Shown piece after piece: positions 14,584 to 48,740 of a DNA stretch of 53,286 nucleotides. The position numbers were made by a program, and so were the translations under genes. Within the stretch, counting starts at the first letter, position 1. The number at the start of each line of letters is the position of its first letter. The notes under the pieces were generated by a model. The model searched no databases. It saw only the letters and a program-made list of their open reading frames with translations, and was not told the DNA's origin. The stretch is from Candidatus Pacearchaeota archaeon. Lineage in GTDB: Archaea > Nanobdellota > Nanobdellia > Pacearchaeales > GW2011-AR1. The stretch covers positions 1 through 53,286 of the forward strand of contig JAGLQO010000013.1 of NCBI GenBank assembly GCA_023136775.1. The letters are read 5' to 3'.

Positions 14584-14705
14584 ACAATTCTAACGAAGAG
14601 CGAACGAATCGCACAACAATGTATTCTCCCGTCACCTGCTACCTCAGACCCGTTACCCCTTGACAAAGTCAAGCAGATACATATAATGAGTTAAAGAAAA
14701 AGTAA
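14551..14705 (+). repeat. duplicated gene 3' end (14551-14583 and 14673-14705) flanking a small insert
   Basis: both copies encode DTYNELKKK*, four of five differences are synonymous. Confidence 0.85.
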
Positions 14706-30469: not shown

Positions 30470-30535
30470 CCCCTTGTCTTAAATCCGTGAACACCGAAGG
30501 TGTCTGTGTAAATCCGTGAGCAAAATTGCCTTCCC
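30470..30535 (+). repeat. dispersed repeat family A
   Basis: AAATCCGTGAACACCGAAGGTGTCTGTGTAAATCCGTGAGCAAAATTGCC. Confidence 0.9.
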
Positions 30536-31314
30536 TATTTCTTAACCTTAACAACCAAAATTCTTTCACCATCTTTCTTAAAATCCTTCTTGACAGAAAA
30601 ATTCTCCTCAAGATAATCAACAATCCACTTTCGCTGAACAGTAAATTTCTTCCGACCACCGAGACTTTCCGTAGGCAAACTAACAACTATCCACTCACAT
30701 TCTTTAGAAATTTCAGTTATAAATTTCTTAGAAAAATCCCTTTCCAAATTTTCCAAAGCATCCACAACCTGAAACAAAAACACACATCTATCTTTATTTT
30801 GCCGTTTCAAAACATCCACAATTTTTTCAAACTCAAATAAATCCATACATTCAGCCCTAGCTAAAAACATCTTTTCTTCAAAATACTTATTCATGCCGTC
30901 TACCAATTGACCAGCAGCCTCAATCCCTACATAATCAACACTTCCAAGTTCTTCTTTTATCTTACCATAAGAAAATCCATTCGCTCCACAACCAAGATCA
31001 ATAACAGAATGAATCCCCTTTATATCTTTGGGGCCACCAGAGTCATCCCTTGGGGAAAAAATTTCCTTATAAAATTCTTCATAATTTCTCTTCTTGCTAG
31101 ACATATGATTTTCAAGCATTTCTTTTTCATCCCCCTTAGCCTTCAAAACCTTATTTGTCAAAAAAACTCCAAAATATTTTCTAAGTAAAGCCCGAGCCCC
31201 CTTAACCTCTCCGCCACTTTTCTGAACAGCCCTTTGCACAATAGAATCAGGCAAACCACTAAGTTCTCTTTTTTTCTTAACCTCTTTTATCAAACTCATA
31301 GCTATACAATTCAC
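30535..31314 (-). CDS. FmrO/ArmA-like 16S rRNA (m7G1405-type) methyltransferase homolog
   Basis: helical N-terminus, VIDLGCGANGFSY, WIVVSLPTESLGGRKKF resemble the Arm/Rmt/FmrO family. Confidence 0.7.
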   Translation of the reverse strand: MNCIAMSLIKEVKKKRELSGLPDSIVQRAVQKSGGEVKGARALLRKYFGVFLTNKVLKAKGDEKEMLENHMSSKKRNYEEFYKEIFSPRDDSGGPKDIKGIHSVIDLGCGANGFSYGKIKEELGSVDYVGIEAAGQLVDGMNKYFEEKMFLARAECMDLFEFEKIVDVLKRQNKDRCVFLFQVVDALENLERDFSKKFITEISKECEWIVVSLPTESLGGRKKFTVQRKWIVDYLEENFSVKKDFKKDGERILVVKVKK

Positions 31315-31511: not shown

Positions 31512-33395
31512 TCAACTGAACCATATTTTCAAAATACCACGAATCTTCTCTATCCTTTTTATCAACATCTCAACTTCCTTAATCTCTCGAGGAACTACTA
31601 CCAAAAAACATTCCGCATAATCCTTATCAATCATTTTAATATTAGCTTCCTTTATAACAAAACCACCTCGAGAAACAGTATTTAAAATGTCTGATAAAAT
31701 CCCAGACCTCTCATTCACTTTCAACTTAATTTTAATTGGACGATTAAATGTCTCCTTCCAATTTACATGTATCTGAGATTTTGTTGAATGATCAATTCTA
31801 TTACAATTCTTTTTATGAACAAGAATTTTCCTATAAGATTTTATCACCCCTACAATCTCATCAAGTGGAAGTGGATTACAACATCTTGCCAAATTATATT
31901 TATGATTCGGAAACTCTTCACTTATCACTAAATCTTCAAAATCTAATTTTCGATCCTTAACAGTCGGAAATAATCTTACAACCTTTACATCCTCATATCT
32001 CTTAACACCTTTCTTAATATGAGATTTTGCCCTAGAAGTAACTACAAATTTTAACCAAGCTCTTCTCGGTCTTTGAAATTTATTCGTAACAATTTCGACA
32101 ACATCTCCCGATGTCAATTCTTTTTTTAACGATGAGAAATTTCCGTTAATCCTCCCCCCAGTTGCCAAGTCCCCAACCTTACCATGAATCCTATATGCAA
32201 AATCCAGAATTGTAGAATTCTTAGGAAAATCAAAAACATCACCCTTCGGAGTATAACAATAAATTCTATCCTCAAATAAATTCAACTTCAAAGATTCTAA
32301 AAAATCTTTATCCTCTCCACCCTTCTGTAATTCAAAAATTTCTTTCAACCATGCAGTCTTTTTTTCAAAACCAATATCTGTCTTTAGTTTTTTATAAGAC
32401 CAATGAGCAGCCACTCCTTCTTCCGCAACCTCATCCATCTCAACAGTTCTTATCTGAACCTCCAAAATCTTACTATCCAAAAGTTCCAAACAAGTATGAA
32501 TTGATTGATAGCCATTTTCTTTTGGACAAGAAATATAATCTTTCAAAGTACCTGGAATAACTTTATAATTCTCATGCAAAACACCAAGACAATCATAACA
32601 ACTCTTTTCATTTTCCACAATAATCCTAATCGCCAAATGATCCCTTTGCGTCTCCAGCGGCTTTTTCAAATCTTTCATCTTTTTATAAATACTATAAATC
32701 TGCTTTTGACGACCCTTAATTTTCACGGACTTGCCTTTCAAAAAATTCTCAAATTCTTTTATTATTTTTTCTAAATACAATTGCCTCTCCTCATAAGTTT
32801 CTTTCAAAAAATTCTCAATCTCTCTATACTTTCGAGGATTAATAACCCTAAAAGAAACCTGAATAATTTTCTGTTTTAATTTCTCAGCCCCAAGTCGACC
32901 AGCCAACGGAGCATAAAACTCCACAGCGTCTTCAGCCAATCTCTTCTGCTCTTTTTCCGCAAAAGATTCCATGGTCTCTAAATTAACAAGTTTAGAAGCA
33001 AGCCGAACGAAAACAACTCGAATATCATAAAGCGTTGTAAAAAATATTTGACGCATCAAATCCGCCGAAGCTGATTTTGACTTCTCTTTTATTTCTTTTA
33101 ATTTTAATTGTTCAAAAACCAAATTAACAACTTCTCCATCAAAAAATTCCTTCAAATTTTCTTTAGAAATTTTATTTTCAAGACCATACAAAAATCCAGC
33201 AACAACAACGCTTCTTGACATCTTAGATTCAATCAAATATTTAGCAATTTTCAAATTATAAAAATAAACTGATTCCCCATTCAATCTTTTTTCAGAAAAC
33301 AAATATTTCTTAGAAAAATCCAAAGCATGCTTAAAACTATTAATATCTTCCTTTGAATAATTTTTCTCCTTACATAATAACTCTAAATTTTCCAT
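31512..33395 (-). CDS. long RelA/SpoT homolog: degenerate HD, synthetase, TGS, ACT
   Basis: GRQKQIYSIYKKM, RDHLAIRIIV, LKDYISCPKENGYQSIHT, LEVQIRTVEMDEVAEEGVAAHWSYK, TGS and ACT regions. Confidence 0.93.
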   Translation of the reverse strand: MENLELLCKEKNYSKEDINSFKHALDFSKKYLFSEKRLNGESVYFYNLKIAKYLIESKMSRSVVVAGFLYGLENKISKENLKEFFDGEVVNLVFEQLKLKEIKEKSKSASADLMRQIFFTTLYDIRVVFVRLASKLVNLETMESFAEKEQKRLAEDAVEFYAPLAGRLGAEKLKQKIIQVSFRVINPRKYREIENFLKETYEERQLYLEKIIKEFENFLKGKSVKIKGRQKQIYSIYKKMKDLKKPLETQRDHLAIRIIVENEKSCYDCLGVLHENYKVIPGTLKDYISCPKENGYQSIHTCLELLDSKILEVQIRTVEMDEVAEEGVAAHWSYKKLKTDIGFEKKTAWLKEIFELQKGGEDKDFLESLKLNLFEDRIYCYTPKGDVFDFPKNSTILDFAYRIHGKVGDLATGGRINGNFSSLKKELTSGDVVEIVTNKFQRPRRAWLKFVVTSRAKSHIKKGVKRYEDVKVVRLFPTVKDRKLDFEDLVISEEFPNHKYNLARCCNPLPLDEIVGVIKSYRKILVHKKNCNRIDHSTKSQIHVNWKETFNRPIKIKLKVNERSGILSDILNTVSRGGFVIKEANIKMIDKDYAECFLVVVPREIKEVEMLIKRIEKIRGILKIWFS

Positions 33396-33429
33396 ATTGA
33401 TTAAAATTAAAAATAATTTCTCCTGTTAT

Positions 33430-33957
33430 TTACAAGTTAATGAAATTTAAAATCATTTCCCTATTCCGAACTTCGGGATGAAAAAGCGTTCCATAAATTT
33501 GCTTCTCCTTATGCTTAACAGCTTGAGCAACTTTACCTTCAGAAAAAACCTCAAAATCATCATTGAATTTAACATAATTATTATGCAAATGATAAACCTC
33601 TAAATCTCCCTCAAGCTCCAAAAATTCCTTATCAAAGTTTTCATGAAAATATCCAATCTCCAAATTCTTCTTTAATCCACCACCAAAGACAAGTCCAATT
33701 AATTGAAACCCTGCACAAATACCAAGCAATGGTTTCTCAAAATTCTTTATCCAATTAAACTTTTCAACATCTTCCAAAAAAGAATTATCTTTCAAACTAG
33801 TACCACAAATAATTACCTTATCACATCCATCAAAATCCTCTTCAGTTAACTCCAAATAATACTTAGTAAAAAAATCCCCCTCCAAAATATCCTCAATAGG
33901 TTTTACAAATTCTAAATAATGAAGTTTTTCTTTACATAGATTAATAATTAAAATCAT
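33430..33957 (-). CDS. class I glutamine amidotransferase (GuaA GATase-like)
   Basis: PLLGICAGFQLIG nucleophile region; GTLFHPEVRN. Confidence 0.85.
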   Translation of the reverse strand: MILIINLCKEKLHYLEFVKPIEDILEGDFFTKYYLELTEEDFDGCDKVIICGTSLKDNSFLEDVEKFNWIKNFEKPLLGICAGFQLIGLVFGGGLKKNLEIGYFHENFDKEFLELEGDLEVYHLHNNYVKFNDDFEVFSEGKVAQAVKHKEKQIYGTLFHPEVRNREMILNFINL

Positions 33958-34139
33958 GAATTAAGACCTCCATCTTGAAAAGAACAAGCACGAAAGAATC
34001 GTGCAACAATGTATTCTTCCCGTAACCCCCGTCCTGTTAGCTCTCCGAAAGAGTGCCTGTTACCTCGCGGGATACGCGCGGGTTTTACAAATTCTAAATA
34101 ATGAAGTTTTTCTTTACATAGATTAATAATTAAAATCAT
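33899..34139. repeat. 59 bp perfect direct repeat (33899-33957, 34081-34139) flanking a 123 bp insert
   Basis: ggttttacaaattctaaataatgaagtttttctttacatagattaataattaaaatcat occurs twice exactly. Confidence 0.95.
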
Positions 34140-34675
34140 AACACTACCTCCTCAAGTTTTTCACGAATAACTTTAATTAATTTTTTATGGACTTCAGTTA
34201 ATTCTCTTTTTTCCTCAACCACTTTCAAAATTTCTTCAGTTTCTTTTTTATATTTTTTAGCAAATTTAATATCCATCGTAATTAAATCACTAACATTATC
34301 AAGCCTATCTGCAAGCTTAATCACAAGTGCCCAATTTCCAAGAGCATTCTCACTTGAAAGTTTATGTGCCAAATATGCTGTTTTGCCCACTTTCGAACAA
34401 GAAAATTTATCCGTCGTCAACTCAACAACCAACAAAGCAACTAAGTAACCAAAATTCTCACTCAACTCATAAACTCCCGTATCTGTCTCCTCTAATGTAT
34501 CATGCAAATAAGCAGCCGCAACTAAATCATCAATCTTATGACTTTTCTTAAATTTTGAAACAATATCAGCAACTCGTATAGGATGATTAACATAAGGACT
34601 TCCATCTTTTCTAGTCTGTCCTTTATGTTTTTTTATCGCAAACTCTTTCGCCCTAATTATCAAATCACTTTCCAT
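34136..34675 (-). CDS. stand-alone HD hydrolase of SpoT/Mesh1 type (putative small alarmone hydrolase)
   Basis: HKGQTRKDGSPYVNHP, AAYLHDTLEETDT, VIKLADRLDNVSDL. Confidence 0.9.
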   Translation of the reverse strand: MESDLIIRAKEFAIKKHKGQTRKDGSPYVNHPIRVADIVSKFKKSHKIDDLVAAAYLHDTLEETDTGVYELSENFGYLVALLVVELTTDKFSCSKVGKTAYLAHKLSSENALGNWALVIKLADRLDNVSDLITMDIKFAKKYKKETEEILKVVEEKRELTEVHKKLIKVIREKLEEVVL

Positions 34676-35357
34676 TCTTTAAATTTAATTCCCTCCTCCA
34701 AGAATGCCCCTCTCCAAAATCTTCGAAACTCTTTACTTTCAATCCAGATTTAAACAAAGGACAATTTATTGTAAAACTTTCAAACTCTCCACCCTCACCA
34801 GCTGGATTAATCTTATATTTATTCCACAAAACTTCCATTTCTTCAATAAATTTTTTATCAATTTTTCGTCCTAAAAAATTTTCATCTAAAGGATAAGCCA
34901 TAACTCCAACAACAATTATTTCAAACTTCTCATCAATTAAAGTTTGCAAAATATCAAATTGCCCTCGCTGCCAAAGCGGATTAAAACACTCAATATTTAA
35001 TTTATTACAAATTTTTTGAACCCTAGTGGCCTGATAAACAGACTCAACAGCCCCCGTAACAACCCCTTCAATTTTATATTTCTTCATAGCTTCCAAAATA
35101 GCCCTCTCCAAGTCTTCCAACTCTTTTTCCTTTTCCCCTTCAGTCTCAACAACAATCAAAGGCAAATCCATTTTCTCTGCCTGCTCTTTAACTCTAGAAA
35201 TCGAAGGCGTATGAAACATAAAACTTTCCTTATTTTTAGAATCAATTGTAATCAAACAAGAAATCTCATATCCATCTTTTTTAGCAAGCCAAGCTGCTAA
35301 GGCAGAATCCTTTCCCCCACTAAACAAAACTCCTAACTTCATAAAACAATAACACAA
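34665..35357 (-). CDS. dph6: diphthine--ammonia ligase
   Basis: LFSGGKDSALAAWLA PP-loop; GAVESVYQATRVQKIC; NPAGEGGEFESF. Confidence 0.92.
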   Translation of the reverse strand: MCYCFMKLGVLFSGGKDSALAAWLAKKDGYEISCLITIDSKNKESFMFHTPSISRVKEQAEKMDLPLIVVETEGEKEKELEDLERAILEAMKKYKIEGVVTGAVESVYQATRVQKICNKLNIECFNPLWQRGQFDILQTLIDEKFEIIVVGVMAYPLDENFLGRKIDKKFIEEMEVLWNKYKINPAGEGGEFESFTINCPLFKSGLKVKSFEDFGEGHSWRRELNLKNGK

Positions 35358-37995: not shown

Positions 37996-38982
37996 CTACA
38001 CCTTCAACCCAATAGTTTTATTAGCATTCTTATTTTTAATCTTACTTTCTTGTCCTAAAACTTTCTCAAGTATTTTTATTTCATTTTGTATCTTAACCAT
38101 ATTTTCCTTATACCTTTTTTCCCGAAGTCTATAAGTTGCCGTTGTTATAGTCTTCGCATTAAAACAATTCTCCTGTGCTTGCTTAAGTAATTCCCTAGTA
38201 GAAACTAATTCAATCCTGAAATTAGATAACTTCTTCTCCTTAAGATACCTATTTACTTTTTTAGTTATTGGAACCGATATCCCCCCGAGGAATAAAAGCA
38301 CCAAAAGAATCTGCCACCAATATCGAACAAGAAACCCTTGAGTTGCCTTAATAGCAGATTTAATTCTTTGGCTTTCCGCAGCTGCTTGAGTTAATTCTAA
38401 ATTAGCATCACCAAGAATAAGTTCCGCATCATCATATCTCTCTCCCTCAAACGCAACCTTCGCCTCTTCAAAAATAACACGAGCATCATCAGTAATTACG
38501 CCATCTTTTTTATACTGTGCTTCTTTTTCTTCAAATAAAGAAATCTCGTCAAGAATTCTATAAGCCTGGTCCCTTCGCTGAACAATAACATAAGCAAGTT
38601 TCGCGGACTGAAAATAATCTTGAGTTTTTCTCTCGTAAGAAGGTGTTTCTTCTCCAATAACAATTAAATCCTCAAGATAAACTCCTTTAGGTCCATCTAT
38701 TTCTAATTTAAACAACTCAGTCAAATCCGAAGGAGTCATTCCAATAAAGTATCTCTTGGCTTCCAATAAAGTATCTTTAACAAAAAAACTAGAGAATCCC
38801 TCGGCCTCCATCTCGCTCACAAGACCTTCTGCTTTCATCAACCCACCCAACGCCTCTCCATAATTAACTTCCCGAACCTCATCATAAGACTGCGCAACAA
38901 CAAAACAAAAATTCATAACTAAAAACACAACTAAAACAGTCACCCCACATCCATTCTTTTTCGCATTCCAAATTCTATTCAT
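37996..38982 (-). CDS. membrane coiled-coil partner protein, module copy 1
   Basis: signal peptide, helical domain, RYWWQILLV TM, coiled-coil tail; ATGA overlap with giant gene; paralog of 49406-50344. Confidence 0.85.
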   Translation of the reverse strand: MNRIWNAKKNGCGVTVLVVFLVMNFCFVVAQSYDEVREVNYGEALGGLMKAEGLVSEMEAEGFSSFFVKDTLLEAKRYFIGMTPSDLTELFKLEIDGPKGVYLEDLIVIGEETPSYERKTQDYFQSAKLAYVIVQRRDQAYRILDEISLFEEKEAQYKKDGVITDDARVIFEEAKVAFEGERYDDAELILGDANLELTQAAAESQRIKSAIKATQGFLVRYWWQILLVLLFLGGISVPITKKVNRYLKEKKLSNFRIELVSTRELLKQAQENCFNAKTITTATYRLREKRYKENMVKIQNEIKILEKVLGQESKIKNKNANKTIGLKV

Positions 38983-41900
38983 TTTCGCATTGTCCTCTCT
39001 AAAAAAATTTTTACCTTATCACTCATATCATTCAAAAACTTAAGAAGCTTATATTTTTTTGTGTTTTTTTCTTTTCTATGTTTTTCTTCAAGTATAATTT
39101 TTTCTTCATCTAATTCCGATAGTCTTTCCTTCTCAAGATTATACAACCTCTTAAATTTCCTCTCCGTCAACTTCTCCTTATTAAAATAATCTTCTTGAGT
39201 TTTCACCATCATCTCATTTAACTCCCTCTTCTCCTTAACTAAATTCTTTATCTCTTGGTCAGTTCTCAAAATTCCAATACGCTTATTTCTAAGTTTAATC
39301 CTCAAATGTTTAAGATCATCCAATCTATTCTCATATTGAACTATAGCCTGCTTATATCTCTCTGGAGAAAAAGAACCCTTAGATAAATAACTAGTCTGCG
39401 ATTCTTCCATTAAGGTATTTATAGATTTCTCCTCTTTATCCAACCCCTTAAGTCTTTGATTAATAATAAATATCGTACTATGCTTATAACTCAAAAAAAG
39501 AACAATCAACAAAATAATCATAGAAATTATAATCAACCACCAATAGTTCACAATAACCCAAAGCAAATCAAACTTTCCCTTCGTCTCCAAAATTAACGCC
39601 AACTGAGCATCCTTAGCCCTATCCATTGCAGCCTCGAAATCCTCTCTCTCAAAAGCTTTTATAGCCAAAATTAAATTATTTTCAGTTTCGCTAACATCAA
39701 GCCATCTCAATTTTGCCTTCTCAACTTCACCTTGAATTTCTTTAATTAATAAATCCGCCTCGAATGCAGTTTTTGCAAGTGCCAAAATACGGTCAGTAAA
39801 TTCAAGCGTCAACTCATAATTCAAGTTCCCAAAAGCACTAGTTGCCTGTCTCAATAAATCCTCAATACTCCCTACAGGAAATCCAGCATCCCTCATCAAT
39901 AAAAGACTCTTTTTAGCATCATCTAACCCTTTTATAGCCTCATCACTACTTTTCTCAATCAATCCAAAAATAAGTGTTCTATATTCCAAAAAAGGCTTAG
40001 ACATAAATCCTGCAGCTTCACTATCCAAGGCAACAATGTCAGCACTAATTTCCAAAGTAATTTCATAATCTTGCTTCTCCAAATAAGGCGGAGCAAAAAT
40101 CTCAAAAGTATAATTCCTACTTTCTAAGAAATACAATCTTGCTTCTTCAGCAGGTCCCAATTTATGAATCCAAATTTGTGCAATCCCATTAGTTATGTCC
40201 CATAAAGTTATAGCAGAATCATTCACCCCGTCGCCATCCAAATCAATATTCTTAGATTCCTTCAGATCCAAACTCATATTAATAGGATTTGAGGAAATAA
40301 TAAAATATGCAGAATCTCCTCTAAGTTCCGACAACAAAACAGAATGTCCTCCCAGCTCTGTCAGATTAAACGGCAAACTTCCGCCCTGACCTGATAATCT
40401 TAAATTTCTACTTTCAACATAAACAAGTTTTTCAGGATCAAAGTCAAAAGATATCTTAACATATTGTGTCAAAAATCCCTGCATTTCTAAGTCCAAATTC
40501 TCAAAAACCGCATTCTCATAAAAATTGGTAATGGTAATTGGTAAAAACTCCGTAGTCCCTCTAACCAAAGAAAGCTTCTCAGTGGTATAAATCGTCTCGC
40601 TATCACTCTCAACCTTCTTTCCACTGGATACCTCAGTTGAAGTTGATGGTGGACTAGGAGTATCTCCTCCTCCAGAATCAGAATATTTAGAACTTGCCTG
40701 AACGCTCACAGTTACAGTATCGGCAAAAATCAATCCTAACTCTGTTAAATTCGCACCAGAAGCATTAATCGCAGTTGTACTAACAGTTACCACATAATCT
40801 CCAACAGGAGTATCTGTAGGAATCGTCACCTCTATATTATTCTCCGAACTATCCTCTGGGAAAAATTCTCCTTCAAAAGTTATGCTCTCAGACCCAAAAG
40901 TAACAACCCAATCCTCTGGTAAATCATAAAAGAACATAGTATCGTATGCGTCACCCTCTCCGATGTTTTCCAACTCTGCATTAAACTGCACCCCCGTAGC
41001 CCCTTGAATTACGACCAAACTTCCAGTACTTGGATTTAAAAATCTATTAACAAGAACGGGTTGATTCGGCGCAACAACAATAGATCCAGTAATTATTTTT
41101 GAAGAAGGCTCTGCATCTAACGTAGAACTACTAATATTTAATGTAACAACTTTTACTCCCGCCTGAGTTGCAGTATCATTTATAGACAAAACCTTGACCG
41201 CACCAGGGGATAAATTAAAATTTTCACTTTCATTATAAATAGTCTCATTAGAATCACTAGTTATATCAAAATCTAATGCAAAATCTCCAGCATTATTAAT
41301 AACAAAATCTTCAAAAGTTATATCCTCTAACAAACTTACACTTATAGGATCAAAAGACACAGGAGGCTCAGTTATCCAAGTATGATCGAATTCTATAGTT
41401 CTATTAATAACACCGCTAAAATCAGAATTGCCCACAGAATCATTTGCAAACAATCTTAAATTATAAATTCCGGGAACAGTCGTATTTAAAATACTAACAT
41501 AAAAACCTGAAGAATCATTAAACACCATACTAATGTTTGTATAATCAGTTGTATTCGTTAATTTATACTGGAAAATAACTGCCTCCAAAGAAGTATCATC
41601 TTCAGTTACATTAGCATTCACAGTTATATTTACACCCGGATCTAATCCATCAATCGAATTAGGATCCGTCGCTAAACTAATAAAATCAGGAGCAATATTA
41701 TCTATCGTAAAAACTCTTGTCTCGCTTAAATCTGAATTTCCTGAAGCATCCAAACAATTAATCGTCCAATTATATGTTCCATGAGGAAACTCACCAACAT
41801 CAAATACAGTAGGAACATTATTAACAACCATAGAATTGGTTTGATTCAATAAAGAATTTATCAAAACAGAACAATCAAGAGTAGAATCATAATTATCAAT

Positions 41901-44900
41901 CACAGTAAAATTAAGGTAGATACTTGAATTCATTACATTAGACAAATTAAAATTATTAATTGGAAGAATTAAAGTAACATCAGGATTTATTACATCGCCA
42001 ACACCAAATAAACTTTCATTTGTTTCACTGTTTCCACTTGTGTCATTTGCAAACCAACCAACATCATATTGTCCTGTCATAACAGTATCTGAAAAAGTAA
42101 AATAATAATTATCAGTTATATTGTTCACCCCAGCAAGAACAGCAGTTCCATTTGGATAGGTTATATTCGCTAAAACAGTACTTATTCCAATATCATCGCT
42201 CACACTAACATTACAAATAACACCCTGGCTTAAATTTGAATTTTCAGGACTACACCCCAAGTTCAACAAAACAGGAAGAGCAATATCATTGACATTAAAA
42301 TTATTAACTTCGGTTGAATTTAAATTTCCGCTTGTGTCGTTCGCAATAATTACCACATCATAAGACCCAGGCAAAGCTGGAGCGATGAATGAATTATTAT
42401 ATTTATCTCCGACGGTGTTGGTTAGGGTTAGTTGGATAACGGTTGAGTTTGGGTAGGTTATATTAGCTAAAACAATATTTACATTAAAGTCGTCAATTAC
42501 GTCAGTAGAAATTTCAATAATATCTGAAATGTTGTAATCGCTATTCGCTATTGGAGAAATTGAAGTTACATCGGGGTTCACTACATCATTGACATTAAAA
42601 TTATTAACTTCGGTTGAATTTAAATTTCCGCTTGTGTCGTTCGCAATAATTACCACATCATAAGACCCAGGCAAAGCTGGAGCGATGAATGAATTATTAT
42701 ATTTATCTCCGACGGTGTTGGTTAGGGTTAGTTGGATAACGGTTGAGTTTGGGTAGGTTATATTAGCTAAAACAACGTTTACATTAAAGTCGTCAATTAC
42801 GTCAGTAGAAATTTCAATAATATCTGAAATGTTGTAATCGCTATTCGCTATTGGAGAAATTGAAGTTACATCGGGGTTCACTACATCATTGACATTAAAT
42901 AAACTTTCATTTGTTTCACTGTTCCCACTCGTATCATTAGCAAACCAACTAACATTATATTGCCCAGTTAAAGAAGTTTCACTAAAAGAAAAATAATAAT
43001 TGTCAGTTACATTCGAAACAGCAACGGTAACCGAAGTTCCATTCGAATAAGTTACATCCGCCAAAACAGTACCAATACCAATATCATCAACAACCGTAAC
43101 ATTACAAACAACACTCTGACTTAAATTTAAATTTTCAGGACTACATCCAAGATTCAACAAGACAGGAGAAACAATATCCTCGACGCTAAAATTATTAACT
43201 TCGCTATCATTAATATTCCCACTAGAATCCCTAGCAATAATCTTTATCTCATAGGACCCAGGTAATGCTGGGGCGACAAAAGAATTATTATATTTGTTTC
43301 CAACAGTATTGGTTAAAGTTAGTTGGATAACAGTTGAGTTTGGGTAGGTTATATTTGCTAAAACAGTACTAATTAAATTACTATCAGTCACATCAGCTGC
43401 AACCTCAATAGTATTTGAAACATTATAAATTTCATTTTGTATTGGAAATAGCGCGGCAACATCAGGATTCACAGTATCAACATTAAATGTAAAATTAGAA
43501 ACCGCAAATATTTCATTACTAGAAATATCTTCAACCAAACAATTCCAAATATAATTTCCATCCACAATATTATTTATTATAAAATTACTTTCGTTTGAAA
43601 CCCCAGAAACATTTTGGGTTTCATTAATTCCAAAAGGCTGACCAATATTATGGTAAAAAGATATACTGCTCAAACCCGTATCATCCGTCGAATTACAAGT
43701 AAAAGTTATATCATTTAATTTTAAATTGGCATTATTTACAGGAGATATTAAATTGACCAAAGGCGAGTTACTCTCCTGAATACTAAAGCTTCTAACCTCA
43801 CTATCATTTAAATTATCACTTGTATCATTTGCAAATATCTCAATCTGATAAATTCCAGTCTCATTAACATTGCTAAAAGTAACATTATAAATTCCATCAA
43901 AATTACTATCTGTTAACTGAAGTCTAACAACAGTTAAATTTGGAAGAGTAAAATTAGCATAAACATATGAAACATTTATTTCATCACTCACATTAACAGT
44001 TAAACTAATATTTGCTAATTGTAAAAAATTACTTCCAATAGTTGGAGTCAATATTTCCACATCAGGGTTCATTATATCATTAACATTGAAATTACTAACC
44101 TCGGTTGAATTTAAATTCCCGCTTGTGTCGTTTGCAATTATTACCACATCATAAGATCCGAGTAAGGCTGGGGCAATAAAAGAATTATTATATTTATCTC
44201 CGACAGAATTGGTTAGGGTTAATTGGATAACAGTTGAGTTTGGGTAGGTTATATTGGCTAAAACAAAATCAACTTCTAAGTCATCGGTCACGTCAGTAGA
44301 AATTTCAATAATATCTGAAATGTTGTAATCGCTATTCGCTGTTGGGAAAACTGAAGTAACATCAGGGTTCATTATATCATTGACATTAAAATTACTAATC
44401 TCGGTTGAATTTAAATTTCCACTTGTGTCGTTTGCAATTATTACTATATCATAAGATCCGAGTAAGGCTGGGGCAATAAAAGAATTATTATATTTATCTC
44501 CGACAGAATTGGTTAGGGTTAATTGGATAACAGTTGAGTTTGGGTAGGTTATATTGGCTAAAACAAAATCAACTTCTAAGTCATCGGTCACGTCAGTAGA
44601 AATTTCAATAATATCTGAAATGTTGTAATCGCTATTCGCTGTTGGATTAATTGAAGTTACATCAGGGTTCATTACATCATTGACATTGAAATTACTCTCA
44701 CTCGTCTTAATATTCTCACCAGTATCATTTGCAAACCAACTAACATTATACTGTCCCGTCATAACAGTATTTGAAAAAGTAAAATAATAATTACTATCTA
44801 TATTATTCACTCCCATCAAGACAACTGTTCCATTAGGGTAAGTTACATTAGCCAAAACCAAACTAATGCCAATATCATCAACAACCGTAACATTACAAAC

Positions 44901-47900
44901 AACACTCTGACTTAAATTTAAATTACTAGGAACACATCCCAGATTTGTCAAAGTCAACGCAACATCCTCGACGCTAAAATTATTTATTTCACTTGAGTTT
45001 ACATTCCCACTAGAGTCATTTGCAATAATTTTTACCTCATAAGACCCAGACAAAGCTGGGGCGACAAAAGAATTATTATATTTATTATCAATAGAATTAC
45101 TTAAGGTTAATTGAACAACAGTTGAGTTTGGGTAGGTTATATTGGCTAAAACAAAATCAACCCCTAAGTCATCAGTCACATTAGCAGAAATCTCAATATT
45201 ATCTGTTACATTGTAGGCATCGTCCTCAATCGGAAGTACCCCAATTACAACTGGATTCAAAATATCCGAAACACTAAAATTGCTCACCTCTGTATCATTC
45301 AAATTCCCACTCGTGTCATTCGCAATAATTACTATATCATAAGATCCAAGTAAAGCTGGGGAAGTGAATGAATTATTATATTTATCTCCAACAGCGTTGG
45401 TTAAAATTAGTTGGATAACAGTTGAGTTTGGGTAGGTTATATTGGCTAAAACATCATCAATTAAATTATCATCAATTACGTCCGCTGCAATTTCAATAGT
45501 TTCACCAATACCAAAATCACTATTCAAAACAGGAACAACCGAAGTAACATTGGGACTAGTATACTCAGCTATAACAAAACTCACCACCTCACTTGAATTT
45601 ACATTTTGATAAAGACTCGTATCATTAACAACAATCCTGATAACATAATTACCATACATAATTGTATCCGTAAAAATTAAATTATAAACTGAAGTCACAT
45701 TAGTCATACCATACCCAATAGTTGTTCCATTAGGATAAGTTACATTAGCAAATACACTATCAAGCTCAATATTGTCAGTTATATTTACCGTAACATTCAC
45801 CGTATCTGAAATGTTATACATTTCTCCATCTACCAAAACAAGATCTTCAACAAGAGGTGTTGGGTCATAACGATACCAATCAAACATTGCATTTTCCTGT
45901 TTTCCATTTAAAACAGTAGTTGTTCCCTCAATAGGAGATGTAGCAATAGTTTGGAAAGAAGAACCATCCCATCTAATAAGACTTACATCCTCAAGTAAAT
46001 CCATCGCAACAACCATTATTTCATCCGTCGTCGGATGTTGAGAAAATCTAAGGCTTTTTATATCATCGCTTCCGAACACTGTAGTAATTGAAGTAAAGGT
46101 TAAATCCGCAGTGCTCCAAACATTCGGTTTTGTAAAATTAAAATAATCCATAGAAAGTGCATTTCTATCAACAAAACCAAATAACGCCCTAGTCCCTTCA
46201 TTGTTCCATGTACAATCAACATTAGCATTATTCGCCCCATTCAATTCAACAGAAGCATCCTCTACAGGTTCTCCTGCAAGAATAGTACTCCCATCCCACA
46301 TCCTTGCTTGCACATCTGATCCAGAATCTATCCAAATTATACCAATATAATCTGAATTTTTATCACTACACATCCTAACTGCACCAATTCCACCATCCCC
46401 AACATCTACAGTATTTTCTGCGCCCCAACTCCCCGTCGAATGAGTATAAGTTCTATAAGCCCAATTGCTTAAACTACCATAAGATACAATACCATCATTA
46501 CTTAACTCCTCCCAAGCAAACGTAAAATGCTCCTTAATATTTGAAATCATTCCAGTAAATAAAACATCTTTCGTACTATCAAAAGCTGTCCCATTCCAAG
46601 GTATCACATACAAACTACTTAAACTGTCATGCGCCAAAAGCATAATATCATTTGTCCCAGTTTTAGAAACCAACGAAACCCAATGAACAGTATTAGAAAA
46701 AGGAGTTGTTAATATCTGCTCACTAGAATAACCAGTTCCATTCCAAAGTCGATAAGCCAAATTAGAATCAGCAACGCTAGAACTCTCATAAACAATCAAA
46801 GCATTTCCAGAAATTCCCTCATATTCAATATCAAAAGCCCTATATGCTGAATTGGGAACACCCGTACTAACTTCCAACAAATTACCCCAACTCCCATCAT
46901 AAATCTGAACATTAACATCATTGGCATTATCTAACATCCCAACAATTACTTCATCTCTCTCATGACTCGCCTTCGTTACCGTCCAAATAATATTTGCTCC
47001 AACAGAATTTGCATCAACCAGCTCAGCACTAAAAACATTACTTTCATTCCAAGTCCTATACCTTGGAGTCTGAACATTTAATTCCTCATAAGCAATAAAA
47101 CCATCAGCCTGAGTAAAAGTGATATAATCATCATGGATATAATCAAACTCCAAAAAAGAATTAACATCAGGGTCAGCACTCGAAGAATTATCAGGGTCAT
47201 CATAATGAACTTTTCTAATCTTAAAATCAAACACACTAGTAGGCTCCGTTAAATTATCCACAATTATATACAAAAGATCCTCCCTATTAGAAATTCCAGA
47301 TTTTCCAACATGTTGTCCTGTCTCAGTTTCATAAATATCAAAATAAGCCAAAGTATCATTACTCCGAACATAAACATCAATAACTCTTCCATTGGTCAAA
47401 TTAGATTCAAACCAAACCCTAACAGACTCTCCCGCATAAATAGCTTCACTCCAAACACCGTCGGTAACCGAAACGTCATCAAAAATATTAGAAATCTCAA
47501 CTCCATTCTCGTCCAAATGAATAGCATCAATTGCAATAATTTCAACAAGGTCATAAACCTGAACTGACAAATGCGGAACAACCCACTCGATATAATCAGC
47601 ATAATTATCCCCATCAAAATCGTAAGGAATAAAGTCAACTTCCACACGAATCCCTTTAGCTTTATTTTTCCCATCCATCATCTCCATAACTTCAGCATCA
47701 ATATCCTCATCTTCTTCCGACTCACCTCCTACCTGTTGCCCGTCACCCCCGATATCAGCGTACCAATACAACTTAAATTCAATCTCATCCATTTTCATAT
47801 CCATATCTTCCACCACGCTGTACGCCAAAATATCACTATAATTCAATTCACTCGGAGCCGAAACAATAATCCTCTTACCATTCAATACCGAAGTCTCATT

Positions 47901-48740
47901 CGCAACAGGCGCTTCAGTATAATATTCAACCGCAACCCTTTCCTCCTGTTCGACGATATCCGCAACTTCTATAATCACAGCGTCGTCAGTTACAATAATA
48001 TTCTCCGAAATATCTTCCTCTAATATAACCTGTCCCGTAATCGTAAAGCTCGTCAACCAATCCCAAAACCTAGTCAAAATACCTCCCCCTTCTCTAATAT
48101 CCAAAGCAACATTCCCAGTTAAAACATTTTTTTTAACAATATCTTTTCTATCACTTTTCTCAACAATTTTATCATATTTCTTTATATCCTCGACGGCGGC
48201 AGTAATTTCCTCATCAATTAAAATAGAAATATCCTCCGCCCCCTTCGGCAACTTAACGTCTACCTTTTTATCACTAACATTAACTATCTTAATCCATTTC
48301 ACCGGACGACCAATTACCGCCCTATATTGTAAAGTAGAAACACTAGATTCATCAACCACAGTCGAAGAAACATCTAAAACAGACTCCTCAGCTTCTTGAG
48401 AAATGTTCTCTACTTCATCAACATGACTTTGATTAGTTAAATTATTCTGAAGAGTTTCTTCTGTAACGTTAAAAAGTTCAGTTTCATTTAATGTTTCAGT
48501 CACATTTTCAATAGACAAATTTTCAAAAACATCAGAAGAAACATTCTCAAGACTTTCATTCGTATAATTTAACGTTTCATTTGCTGCCGAAACCAGCAAA
48601 ATAGACGCGAAAAAAATACTTGCAATTATCGTCAGAAATGAAAAAATAAATTTTTTATTAACATTAATTGTCTTCAATGCCACCATACCTCCTGATTCGG
48701 ACAAAACAAACATCCCTAGAGATATCCATACTAACAGCAA
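38979..48740 (-). CDS. giant (~3250 aa) Ig/cadherin-like repeat surface protein with C-terminal TM and cytosolic coiled coil
   Basis: N-terminal signal, many ~100-aa NPDVTS..PNSTVIQLTLTN..NDTSGNLNSTE repeats, VNYWWLIIIS TM. Confidence 0.92.
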   Translation of the reverse strand: MLLVWISLGMFVLSESGGMVALKTINVNKKFIFSFLTIIASIFFASILLVSAANETLNYTNESLENVSSDVFENLSIENVTETLNETELFNVTEETLQNNLTNQSHVDEVENISQEAEESVLDVSSTVVDESSVSTLQYRAVIGRPVKWIKIVNVSDKKVDVKLPKGAEDISILIDEEITAAVEDIKKYDKIVEKSDRKDIVKKNVLTGNVALDIREGGGILTRFWDWLTSFTITGQVILEEDISENIIVTDDAVIIEVADIVEQEERVAVEYYTEAPVANETSVLNGKRIIVSAPSELNYSDILAYSVVEDMDMKMDEIEFKLYWYADIGGDGQQVGGESEEDEDIDAEVMEMMDGKNKAKGIRVEVDFIPYDFDGDNYADYIEWVVPHLSVQVYDLVEIIAIDAIHLDENGVEISNIFDDVSVTDGVWSEAIYAGESVRVWFESNLTNGRVIDVYVRSNDTLAYFDIYETETGQHVGKSGISNREDLLYIIVDNLTEPTSVFDFKIRKVHYDDPDNSSSADPDVNSFLEFDYIHDDYITFTQADGFIAYEELNVQTPRYRTWNESNVFSAELVDANSVGANIIWTVTKASHERDEVIVGMLDNANDVNVQIYDGSWGNLLEVSTGVPNSAYRAFDIEYEGISGNALIVYESSSVADSNLAYRLWNGTGYSSEQILTTPFSNTVHWVSLVSKTGTNDIMLLAHDSLSSLYVIPWNGTAFDSTKDVLFTGMISNIKEHFTFAWEELSNDGIVSYGSLSNWAYRTYTHSTGSWGAENTVDVGDGGIGAVRMCSDKNSDYIGIIWIDSGSDVQARMWDGSTILAGEPVEDASVELNGANNANVDCTWNNEGTRALFGFVDRNALSMDYFNFTKPNVWSTADLTFTSITTVFGSDDIKSLRFSQHPTTDEIMVVAMDLLEDVSLIRWDGSSFQTIATSPIEGTTTVLNGKQENAMFDWYRYDPTPLVEDLVLVDGEMYNISDTVNVTVNITDNIELDSVFANVTYPNGTTIGYGMTNVTSVYNLIFTDTIMYGNYVIRIVVNDTSLYQNVNSSEVVSFVIAEYTSPNVTSVVPVLNSDFGIGETIEIAADVIDDNLIDDVLANITYPNSTVIQLILTNAVGDKYNNSFTSPALLGSYDIVIIANDTSGNLNDTEVSNFSVSDILNPVVIGVLPIEDDAYNVTDNIEISANVTDDLGVDFVLANITYPNSTVVQLTLSNSIDNKYNNSFVAPALSGSYEVKIIANDSSGNVNSSEINNFSVEDVALTLTNLGCVPSNLNLSQSVVCNVTVVDDIGISLVLANVTYPNGTVVLMGVNNIDSNYYFTFSNTVMTGQYNVSWFANDTGENIKTSESNFNVNDVMNPDVTSINPTANSDYNISDIIEISTDVTDDLEVDFVLANITYPNSTVIQLTLTNSVGDKYNNSFIAPALLGSYDIVIIANDTSGNLNSTEISNFNVNDIMNPDVTSVFPTANSDYNISDIIEISTDVTDDLEVDFVLANITYPNSTVIQLTLTNSVGDKYNNSFIAPALLGSYDVVIIANDTSGNLNSTEVSNFNVNDIMNPDVEILTPTIGSNFLQLANISLTVNVSDEINVSYVYANFTLPNLTVVRLQLTDSNFDGIYNVTFSNVNETGIYQIEIFANDTSDNLNDSEVRSFSIQESNSPLVNLISPVNNANLKLNDITFTCNSTDDTGLSSISFYHNIGQPFGINETQNVSGVSNESNFIINNIVDGNYIWNCLVEDISSNEIFAVSNFTFNVDTVNPDVAALFPIQNEIYNVSNTIEVAADVTDSNLISTVLANITYPNSTVIQLTLTNTVGNKYNNSFVAPALPGSYEIKIIARDSSGNINDSEVNNFSVEDIVSPVLLNLGCSPENLNLSQSVVCNVTVVDDIGIGTVLADVTYSNGTSVTVAVSNVTDNYYFSFSETSLTGQYNVSWFANDTSGNSETNESLFNVNDVVNPDVTSISPIANSDYNISDIIEISTDVIDDFNVNVVLANITYPNSTVIQLTLTNTVGDKYNNSFIAPALPGSYDVVIIANDTSGNLNSTEVNNFNVNDVVNPDVTSISPIANSDYNISDIIEISTDVIDDFNVNIVLANITYPNSTVIQLTLTNTVGDKYNNSFIAPALPGSYDVVIIANDTSGNLNSTEVNNFNVNDIALPVLLNLGCSPENSNLSQGVICNVSVSDDIGISTVLANITYPNGTAVLAGVNNITDNYYFTFSDTVMTGQYDVGWFANDTSGNSETNESLFGVGDVINPDVTLILPINNFNLSNVMNSSIYLNFTVIDNYDSTLDCSVLINSLLNQTNSMVVNNVPTVFDVGEFPHGTYNWTINCLDASGNSDLSETRVFTIDNIAPDFISLATDPNSIDGLDPGVNITVNANVTEDDTSLEAVIFQYKLTNTTDYTNISMVFNDSSGFYVSILNTTVPGIYNLRLFANDSVGNSDFSGVINRTIEFDHTWITEPPVSFDPISVSLLEDITFEDFVINNAGDFALDFDITSDSNETIYNESENFNLSPGAVKVLSINDTATQAGVKVVTLNISSSTLDAEPSSKIITGSIVVAPNQPVLVNRFLNPSTGSLVVIQGATGVQFNAELENIGEGDAYDTMFFYDLPEDWVVTFGSESITFEGEFFPEDSSENNIEVTIPTDTPVGDYVVTVSTTAINASGANLTELGLIFADTVTVSVQASSKYSDSGGGDTPSPPSTSTEVSSGKKVESDSETIYTTEKLSLVRGTTEFLPITITNFYENAVFENLDLEMQGFLTQYVKISFDFDPEKLVYVESRNLRLSGQGGSLPFNLTELGGHSVLLSELRGDSAYFIISSNPINMSLDLKESKNIDLDGDGVNDSAITLWDITNGIAQIWIHKLGPAEEARLYFLESRNYTFEIFAPPYLEKQDYEITLEISADIVALDSEAAGFMSKPFLEYRTLIFGLIEKSSDEAIKGLDDAKKSLLLMRDAGFPVGSIEDLLRQATSAFGNLNYELTLEFTDRILALAKTAFEADLLIKEIQGEVEKAKLRWLDVSETENNLILAIKAFEREDFEAAMDRAKDAQLALILETKGKFDLLWVIVNYWWLIIISMIILLIVLFLSYKHSTIFIINQRLKGLDKEEKSINTLMEESQTSYLSKGSFSPERYKQAIVQYENRLDDLKHLRIKLRNKRIGILRTDQEIKNLVKEKRELNEMMVKTQEDYFNKEKLTERKFKRLYNLEKERLSELDEEKIILEEKHRKEKNTKKYKLLKFLNDMSDKVKIFLERTMRK
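42289..42888 (-). repeat. two near-identical 300 bp tandem units inside the giant gene
   Basis: exact 300 bp offset; only a few substitutions seen. Confidence 0.93.
44090..44689 (-). repeat. second pair of 300 bp tandem units inside the giant gene
   Basis: CATCAGGGTTCATTATATCAT recurs at exact 300 bp offset. Confidence 0.9.

Follow-up and report, generated by a model that had tools for sequence, protein, structure and literature searches.

RelA/SpoT homologues (RSHs) are typically bacterial proteins. The 2011 survey of Atkinson recorded RSH genes in archaea and found no long RSH there (available text of PMC3153485). The long enzymes closest to the one described below are of two kinds. Bifunctional Rel[HS] proteins such as B. 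subtilis Rel have a working hydrolase site in addition to the synthetase, while the RelA[hS] of beta- and gamma-proteobacteria, exemplified by E. coli RelA, combines a dead HD domain with an active-type synthetase, TGS, zinc finger and ACT modules and leaves hydrolysis to SpoT, a second long RSH. Members of the Mesh1/SAH family (human MESH1, P. aeruginosa SAH, C. glutamicum RelH) consist of a single HD_4 domain of ~180 aa with its metal ligands. For DPANN archaea, RelA/SpoT proteins of predicted bacterial origin have been reported in 19-69% of several phyla, with Woese-, Pace- and Nanoarchaeota and Diapherotrites already among the groups named (available text of PMC8407392). As of 2021, no detection of (p)ppGpp had been recorded for any archaeon (PMC8646023).

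The window analysed here, a stretch of 53,286 nucleotides from a Candidatus Pacearchaeota archaeon (contig JAGLQO010000013.1), carries on its minus strand genes for a 627-aa long RSH (31512..33395) and for a 179-aa stand-alone small alarmone hydrolase (SAH) of the Mesh1 type (34136..34675). A sequence-only reading of the same DNA had proposed the gene order dph6, HD protein, GATase, long RSH, in a tight run. All four ORFs are indeed found in this order on the minus strand, dph6 at 34665..35357 and the gene of a 175-aa class I GATase at 33430..33957; dph6, whose product is the archaeal diphthine-ammonia ligase, a PP-loop ATPase, scores above the NCBIfam Dph6_archaeal cut-off. The run is only partly tight: dph6 and the SAH gene overlap by 11 bp and 34 bp separate the GATase and RSH genes, but 178 bp lie between SAH and GATase. 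This gap is filled by a 182-bp insertion (33958..34139) in which the first 59 bp of the GATase gene are present a second time, together with ~123 bp of a dispersed, GC-rich repeat. We consider it reasonably probable that (p)ppGpp turnover in this DPANN-type archaeon is split between the two proteins, a synthetase-only RSH and a hydrolase SAH.

The RSH has the same architecture as bifunctional Rel[HS] proteins, both B. subtilis Rel and those archaeal RSHs of the phylum that have an intact HD site. Pfam searches, with NCBIfam in agreement, detected all the domains suspected from the sequence: HD_4 (8.2e-24; degenerate, residues ~24-170), RelA_SpoT (5.7e-36; synthetase, 228-336), TGS (3.6e-18; 378-437) and ACT_4 (1.9e-6; 553-624), with a zinc-finger-like CC/H/C set at 505-531. 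The best PDB sequence match is B. subtilis Rel itself (6yxa, 4.7e-102); a structure model of the RSH (pTM 0.46) is usable at the domain level only. In an alignment to B. subtilis Rel, with residues in RelSeq numbering, none of the four HD metal ligands is kept (H53, H77, D78 and D144 are replaced by Y, Y, G and S), and E81/D82 have become N/K. The claim that all canonical HD positions are replaced went somewhat too far, since R44 and N148 remain. That the synthetase motifs are retained was confirmed in full: R241, K243, D264, R269, K304, Y308, H312, E323, Q325 and H341 are all present (10/10). Given the loss of the metal site, no hydrolysis is expected from the RSH, and its HD domain, with the fold kept, probably has only a structural or regulatory role.

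The window RSH thus lacks the metal ligands of a bifunctional Rel[HS], this hydrolase site being lost in its clade, and would work like a RelA-type [hS] protein, with a dead HD domain, an intact synthetase and a retained TGS and zinc finger. The ribosome/tRNA module is recognizable from FAYRIH in the TGS domain and from the ARCC...H...C zinc-finger-like set. Because TGS, zinc-finger and ACT modules have been kept, the RSH is probably a sensor of ribosome-bound uncharged tRNA. As in E. coli, hydrolysis would be left to another protein, here a predicted one-domain SAH instead of a second long RSH. A further difference is the loop before the synthetase motif, which is of the KD type (LKDYI) in the window RSH and DD in RelA.

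The sequence-only reading had noted that archaea are generally considered to lack long RSHs. This view is out of date: of 380 genomes from the phylum, which we take to be a DPANN group, 151 have RelA_SpoT and ~122 of these the long type, counted among the matches listed, in agreement with the DPANN counts published in 2021 (available text of PMC8407392). Long RSHs are therefore not rare in this phylum, and DPANN RelA/SpoT proteins of bacterial origin are already part of the literature. What looks new is a clade of ~53 archaeal RSHs, including the window protein, all of them HD-degenerate and synthetase-intact. Neither an HD-dead archaeal clade nor a long-RSH/SAH pair is described in the available text of PMC3153485 or PMC8407392.

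The survey behind this clade comprised 115 extracted long RSH rows, 59 HD-intact (one repeating the same gene) and 56 HD-degraded. Among the latter, G381 is truncated so that most of the HD site is missing, and G206 is a contig-edge artefact; G206 had been a candidate for an HD-less RSH, and was left out as an RSH cut by contig ends whose HD half clusters with G326. Two rows with K304R apart, all 115 have an intact synthetase site. With contig-edge cases left out, more than 50 archaeal RSHs combine HD decay with an untouched synthetase site, and for this reason the pattern is more than chance. A tree built from synthetase and TGS columns only, with HD columns excluded (quick method, SH-aLRT support, no bootstrap), placed the window RSH in a clade of 53 rows, all HD-degenerate (SH-aLRT 89), with a 46-row core (99) and with the window protein joined to genus g6 (96). 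The clade spans the window's own family (f1) and families f15, f17, f10, f11 and f55; further HD losses were seen in f29 and f20, and a separate one in E. coli RelA. Since the window RSH falls inside the archaeal RSHs, away from the RelA subgroup proper, and E. coli RelA lies elsewhere in the tree, the HD site was lost independently. One genome (G055; L274, L275) encodes a pair of long RSHs, of which one is HD-dead and the other HD-intact, an arrangement that recalls the E. coli RelA/SpoT pair and may reflect contamination.

The two catalytic domains have also diverged at different rates. The ratio of HD to synthetase pairwise identity is 1.04 in HD-intact archaeal RSHs and falls to 0.82 in f17, 0.75 in f15 and 0.60 in f1. 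Synthetase identity is undiminished in the HD-degenerate groups, and synthetase plus TGS identity is as high as in the HD-intact groups. The HD domain thus evolves faster than the synthetase across the clade, and most so in f1, as expected if one domain has lost its function.

The SAH, like other members of the Mesh1/SAH family, has HD_4 (1.4e-13) as its single domain within 179 aa, and the metal-ligand motifs NHP, LHD and KLADRLDN are present. It had been credited with the full HD set; this holds for the metal ligands, but the ED pair is E-E. The motif is EE in the window and mostly EN in the g6 relatives, with ED also occurring in the clade, and an EE pair is also present in several otherwise intact archaeal RSHs. 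An AlphaFold model of the SAH (pLDDT 84) gave human MESH1 as the best PDB match (TM 0.79). The SAH probably hydrolyses the alarmone; the altered ED motif speaks against this, as does the use of a D66K variant of MESH1 for the ligand complex in PDB 9chy.

In phylogenies that included bacterial RSHs and the Mesh1/SAH proteins, the long protein fell among archaeal RSHs and the SAH did not. The window SAH and nine relatives from genera g1 and g6 form one archaeal clade of their own (support 100/98), which groups with Mesh1 and bacterial SAHs (96/84) and not with the HD domains of archaeal long RSHs. The hydrolase was therefore acquired from outside and not split from an RSH, which rules out gene fission as its origin. 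A scan of viral contigs found no SAH in them.

The distribution of the two genes is also informative. A window-type SAH occurs in 10 of the 20 long-RSH genomes of the family and in none of the 165 without a long RSH (Fisher 2e-11; kinship ignored), and within the genus in both long-RSH genomes and in none of the 14 others (p 0.008; kinship ignored). As this co-occurrence rests on two genera (g1 and g6), the independent events are few. Across the wider set, a count by hand gave small SAH-like proteins in 16 of the 55 genomes with a degraded HD site and in 5 of the 58 with an intact one (p 0.007, kinship uncorrected). No SAH was detected in most of the f17 and f15 genomes with HD-dead RSHs. A partner hydrolase is therefore not strictly required, and the SAH is a weak candidate for a phylum-wide compensation for HD loss.

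Among the genomes compared, the RSH stands beside the SAH in this one only, and an operon in the sense of a conserved unit is therefore not supported. In one genus mate (G485) the SAH lies between dph6 and GATase as in the window, with the RSH on another contig; in g6 the SAH is ~5 kb away from dph6, with the RSH at a different place. RSH and window-type SAH are both missing from four genus mates (G489, G347, G455 and G487) in which dph6, GATase and, directly after GATase, a methyltransferase gene are consecutive, and a fifth (G452) has dph6 and the methyltransferase, with GATase missing. In the window, the RSH is placed between GATase and the methyltransferase gene (30535..31314, minus strand). 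Judged by gene order, the locus looks like a resident dph6-GATase-methyltransferase set to which two genes have been added, an arrangement that would tie the GATase to dph6 and not to the alarmone. This bears on the suggestion that a GuaA-like GATase links the locus to purine supply, in which case the four genes would be a purine and alarmone operon with the GATase feeding GMP synthesis. The position of the GATase between SAH and RSH fits such an operon, as does its best NCBIfam match, GMP synthase subunit A, but its scores fall far short of the GuaA cut-offs (58.8 bits against 198, and 50.3 against 172), the GMP synthetase ATPPase domain (GMP_synt_C, PF00958) was found in 0/12 family genomes (75-90% complete) and in 14/14 controls, and the resident set exists in the four genus mates without either alarmone gene. 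We therefore regard a purine operon as most improbable. In some archaea Dph6, an ammonia-dependent PP-loop ATPase, carries a fused glutamine amidotransferase domain (PMC3541065), which makes a Dph6 glutaminase, possibly a subunit of the diphthamide ligase, the better guess and more likely than GuaA. The same synteny argues against a contaminated or chimeric assembly in which a bacterial RSH was joined to an archaeal contig. RSHs being typically bacterial (available text of PMC3153485), such an artefact deserved attention; yet the RSH groups with relatives from the same archaeal family, both flanks (the GATase side and the methyltransferase/M16 side) follow the gene order of genus mates, and bin contamination is 0.69%, so that an artefact of this kind is no more credible than the purine operon.

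Two other explanations concern the activities themselves. The long RSH might no longer make alarmone, being a decaying acquired gene or a non-catalytic ribosome-binding protein. The HD decay and the bacterial acquisition predicted for DPANN RelA/SpoT proteins (available text of PMC8407392) are in line with this, but decay would not leave one domain untouched throughout a clade, and over ~50 genomes the synthetase site is invariant with synthetase and TGS identity as in the HD-intact groups; we think an inactive RSH very improbable. The more serious alternative is that the RSH works as a synthetase while the SAH is not its dedicated partner, hydrolysing NADPH, (p)ppApp or a similar compound, with the adjacency a coincidence. 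SAHs of the Mesh1 group are promiscuous (available text of PMC7644958 and PMC9765508), the adjacency is confined to one genome, and the SAH is missing from most HD-dead relatives. The altered ED motif, with E as its second acid in the window and N in most g6 relatives, also favours this alternative and, like the separation of RSH and SAH in the genus mate and in g6, counts against the split system. The lack, as of 2021, of any record of archaeal (p)ppGpp (PMC8646023) counts against it too. On the other side, no member of the SAH subfamily was seen apart from a long RSH among the 185 family genomes, and the subfamily tracks RSH presence within the genus, and its hosts have the most decayed HD domains. 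A SAH without a dedicated role beside the RSH thus appears unlikely, although clearly less so than the other alternatives. The division into a synthetase-only RSH and a hydrolase-only neighbour, as first proposed, still agrees best with the residues, the relaxed constraint confined to the HD domain, the clade pattern and the co-occurrence.

In a split turnover system of this kind, uncharged tRNA on the ribosome would activate the RSH through its TGS domain and zinc finger. The RSH would then move pyrophosphate from ATP to GTP or GDP, producing pppGpp or ppGpp, and the separately acquired SAH would remove the 3'-pyrophosphate from the same alarmone and so reset the signal. A wider proposal, which we put forward tentatively and hold to be rather less likely than not to apply in full, is that synthetase-only long RSHs sustain a genuine stringent response, on archaeal ribosomes, in a large clade of archaea. 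The off-switch of one family would then be an independently acquired Mesh1-type SAH, and most of the clade would remove the alarmone without an HD-type enzyme, through another hydrolase or by export or dilution. Long RSHs have long been said to be missing from archaea (available text of PMC3153485), and the clade pattern makes alarmone production in DPANN directly testable. Equally open to test are the working of a bacterial-type sensor on an archaeal ribosome and the removal of the signal where the usual hydrolase is absent; the window offers a compact RSH/SAH pair for a first reconstitution.

Several other features of these genomes came to light. In seven g6 genomes (L032-L037, L196) a 130-aa Nudix-like protein with a degenerate Nudix box is encoded directly upstream of the RSH, and NDK, Csl4-like and RadA-like genes (named by eye) are also near the g6 RSH. 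The GATase gene is directly beside dph6 in several genus mates (dph6 loci L221-L225). The methyltransferase, a distant Rmt/FmrO-like rRNA methyltransferase homologue, scores 57 bits to the Rmt-type 16S rRNA family (cut-off 250), and its gene adjoins the dph6 set across the genus. Elsewhere in the phylum, RelA_SpoT proteins of ~360 aa (L170, L171, L174-L176) match PDB entries 7ztb/9erv (2.9e-44), a RelA/SpoT family protein which we take to be CapRel, and PADLOC PDC-S33 (~390 bits); they are candidates for CapRel-like fused toxin-antitoxin proteins. The window also encodes a 3253-aa repetitive surface-type protein at 38979-48740.

The dispersed repeat between SAH and GATase is GC-rich (50% vs 34%) and recurs in this genome as some ten partial copies or more, with no significant copy in 25 relatives. 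Rfam gave nothing above threshold, only a chance-level hit in the 33958-34139 insert. Copies lie in the window at 33958-34139 and 14601-14636, and elsewhere in the genome (G000) at C10:28741 and C24:713 and on C11, C3 and C19 (L308-L315). At four of ten sites examined the repeat is flanked by direct repeats of host sequence, 30-59 bp long and 85-100% identical; in two cases, the GATase gene and a MinD/ParA-like gene on C10, the direct repeat is the start of the gene.
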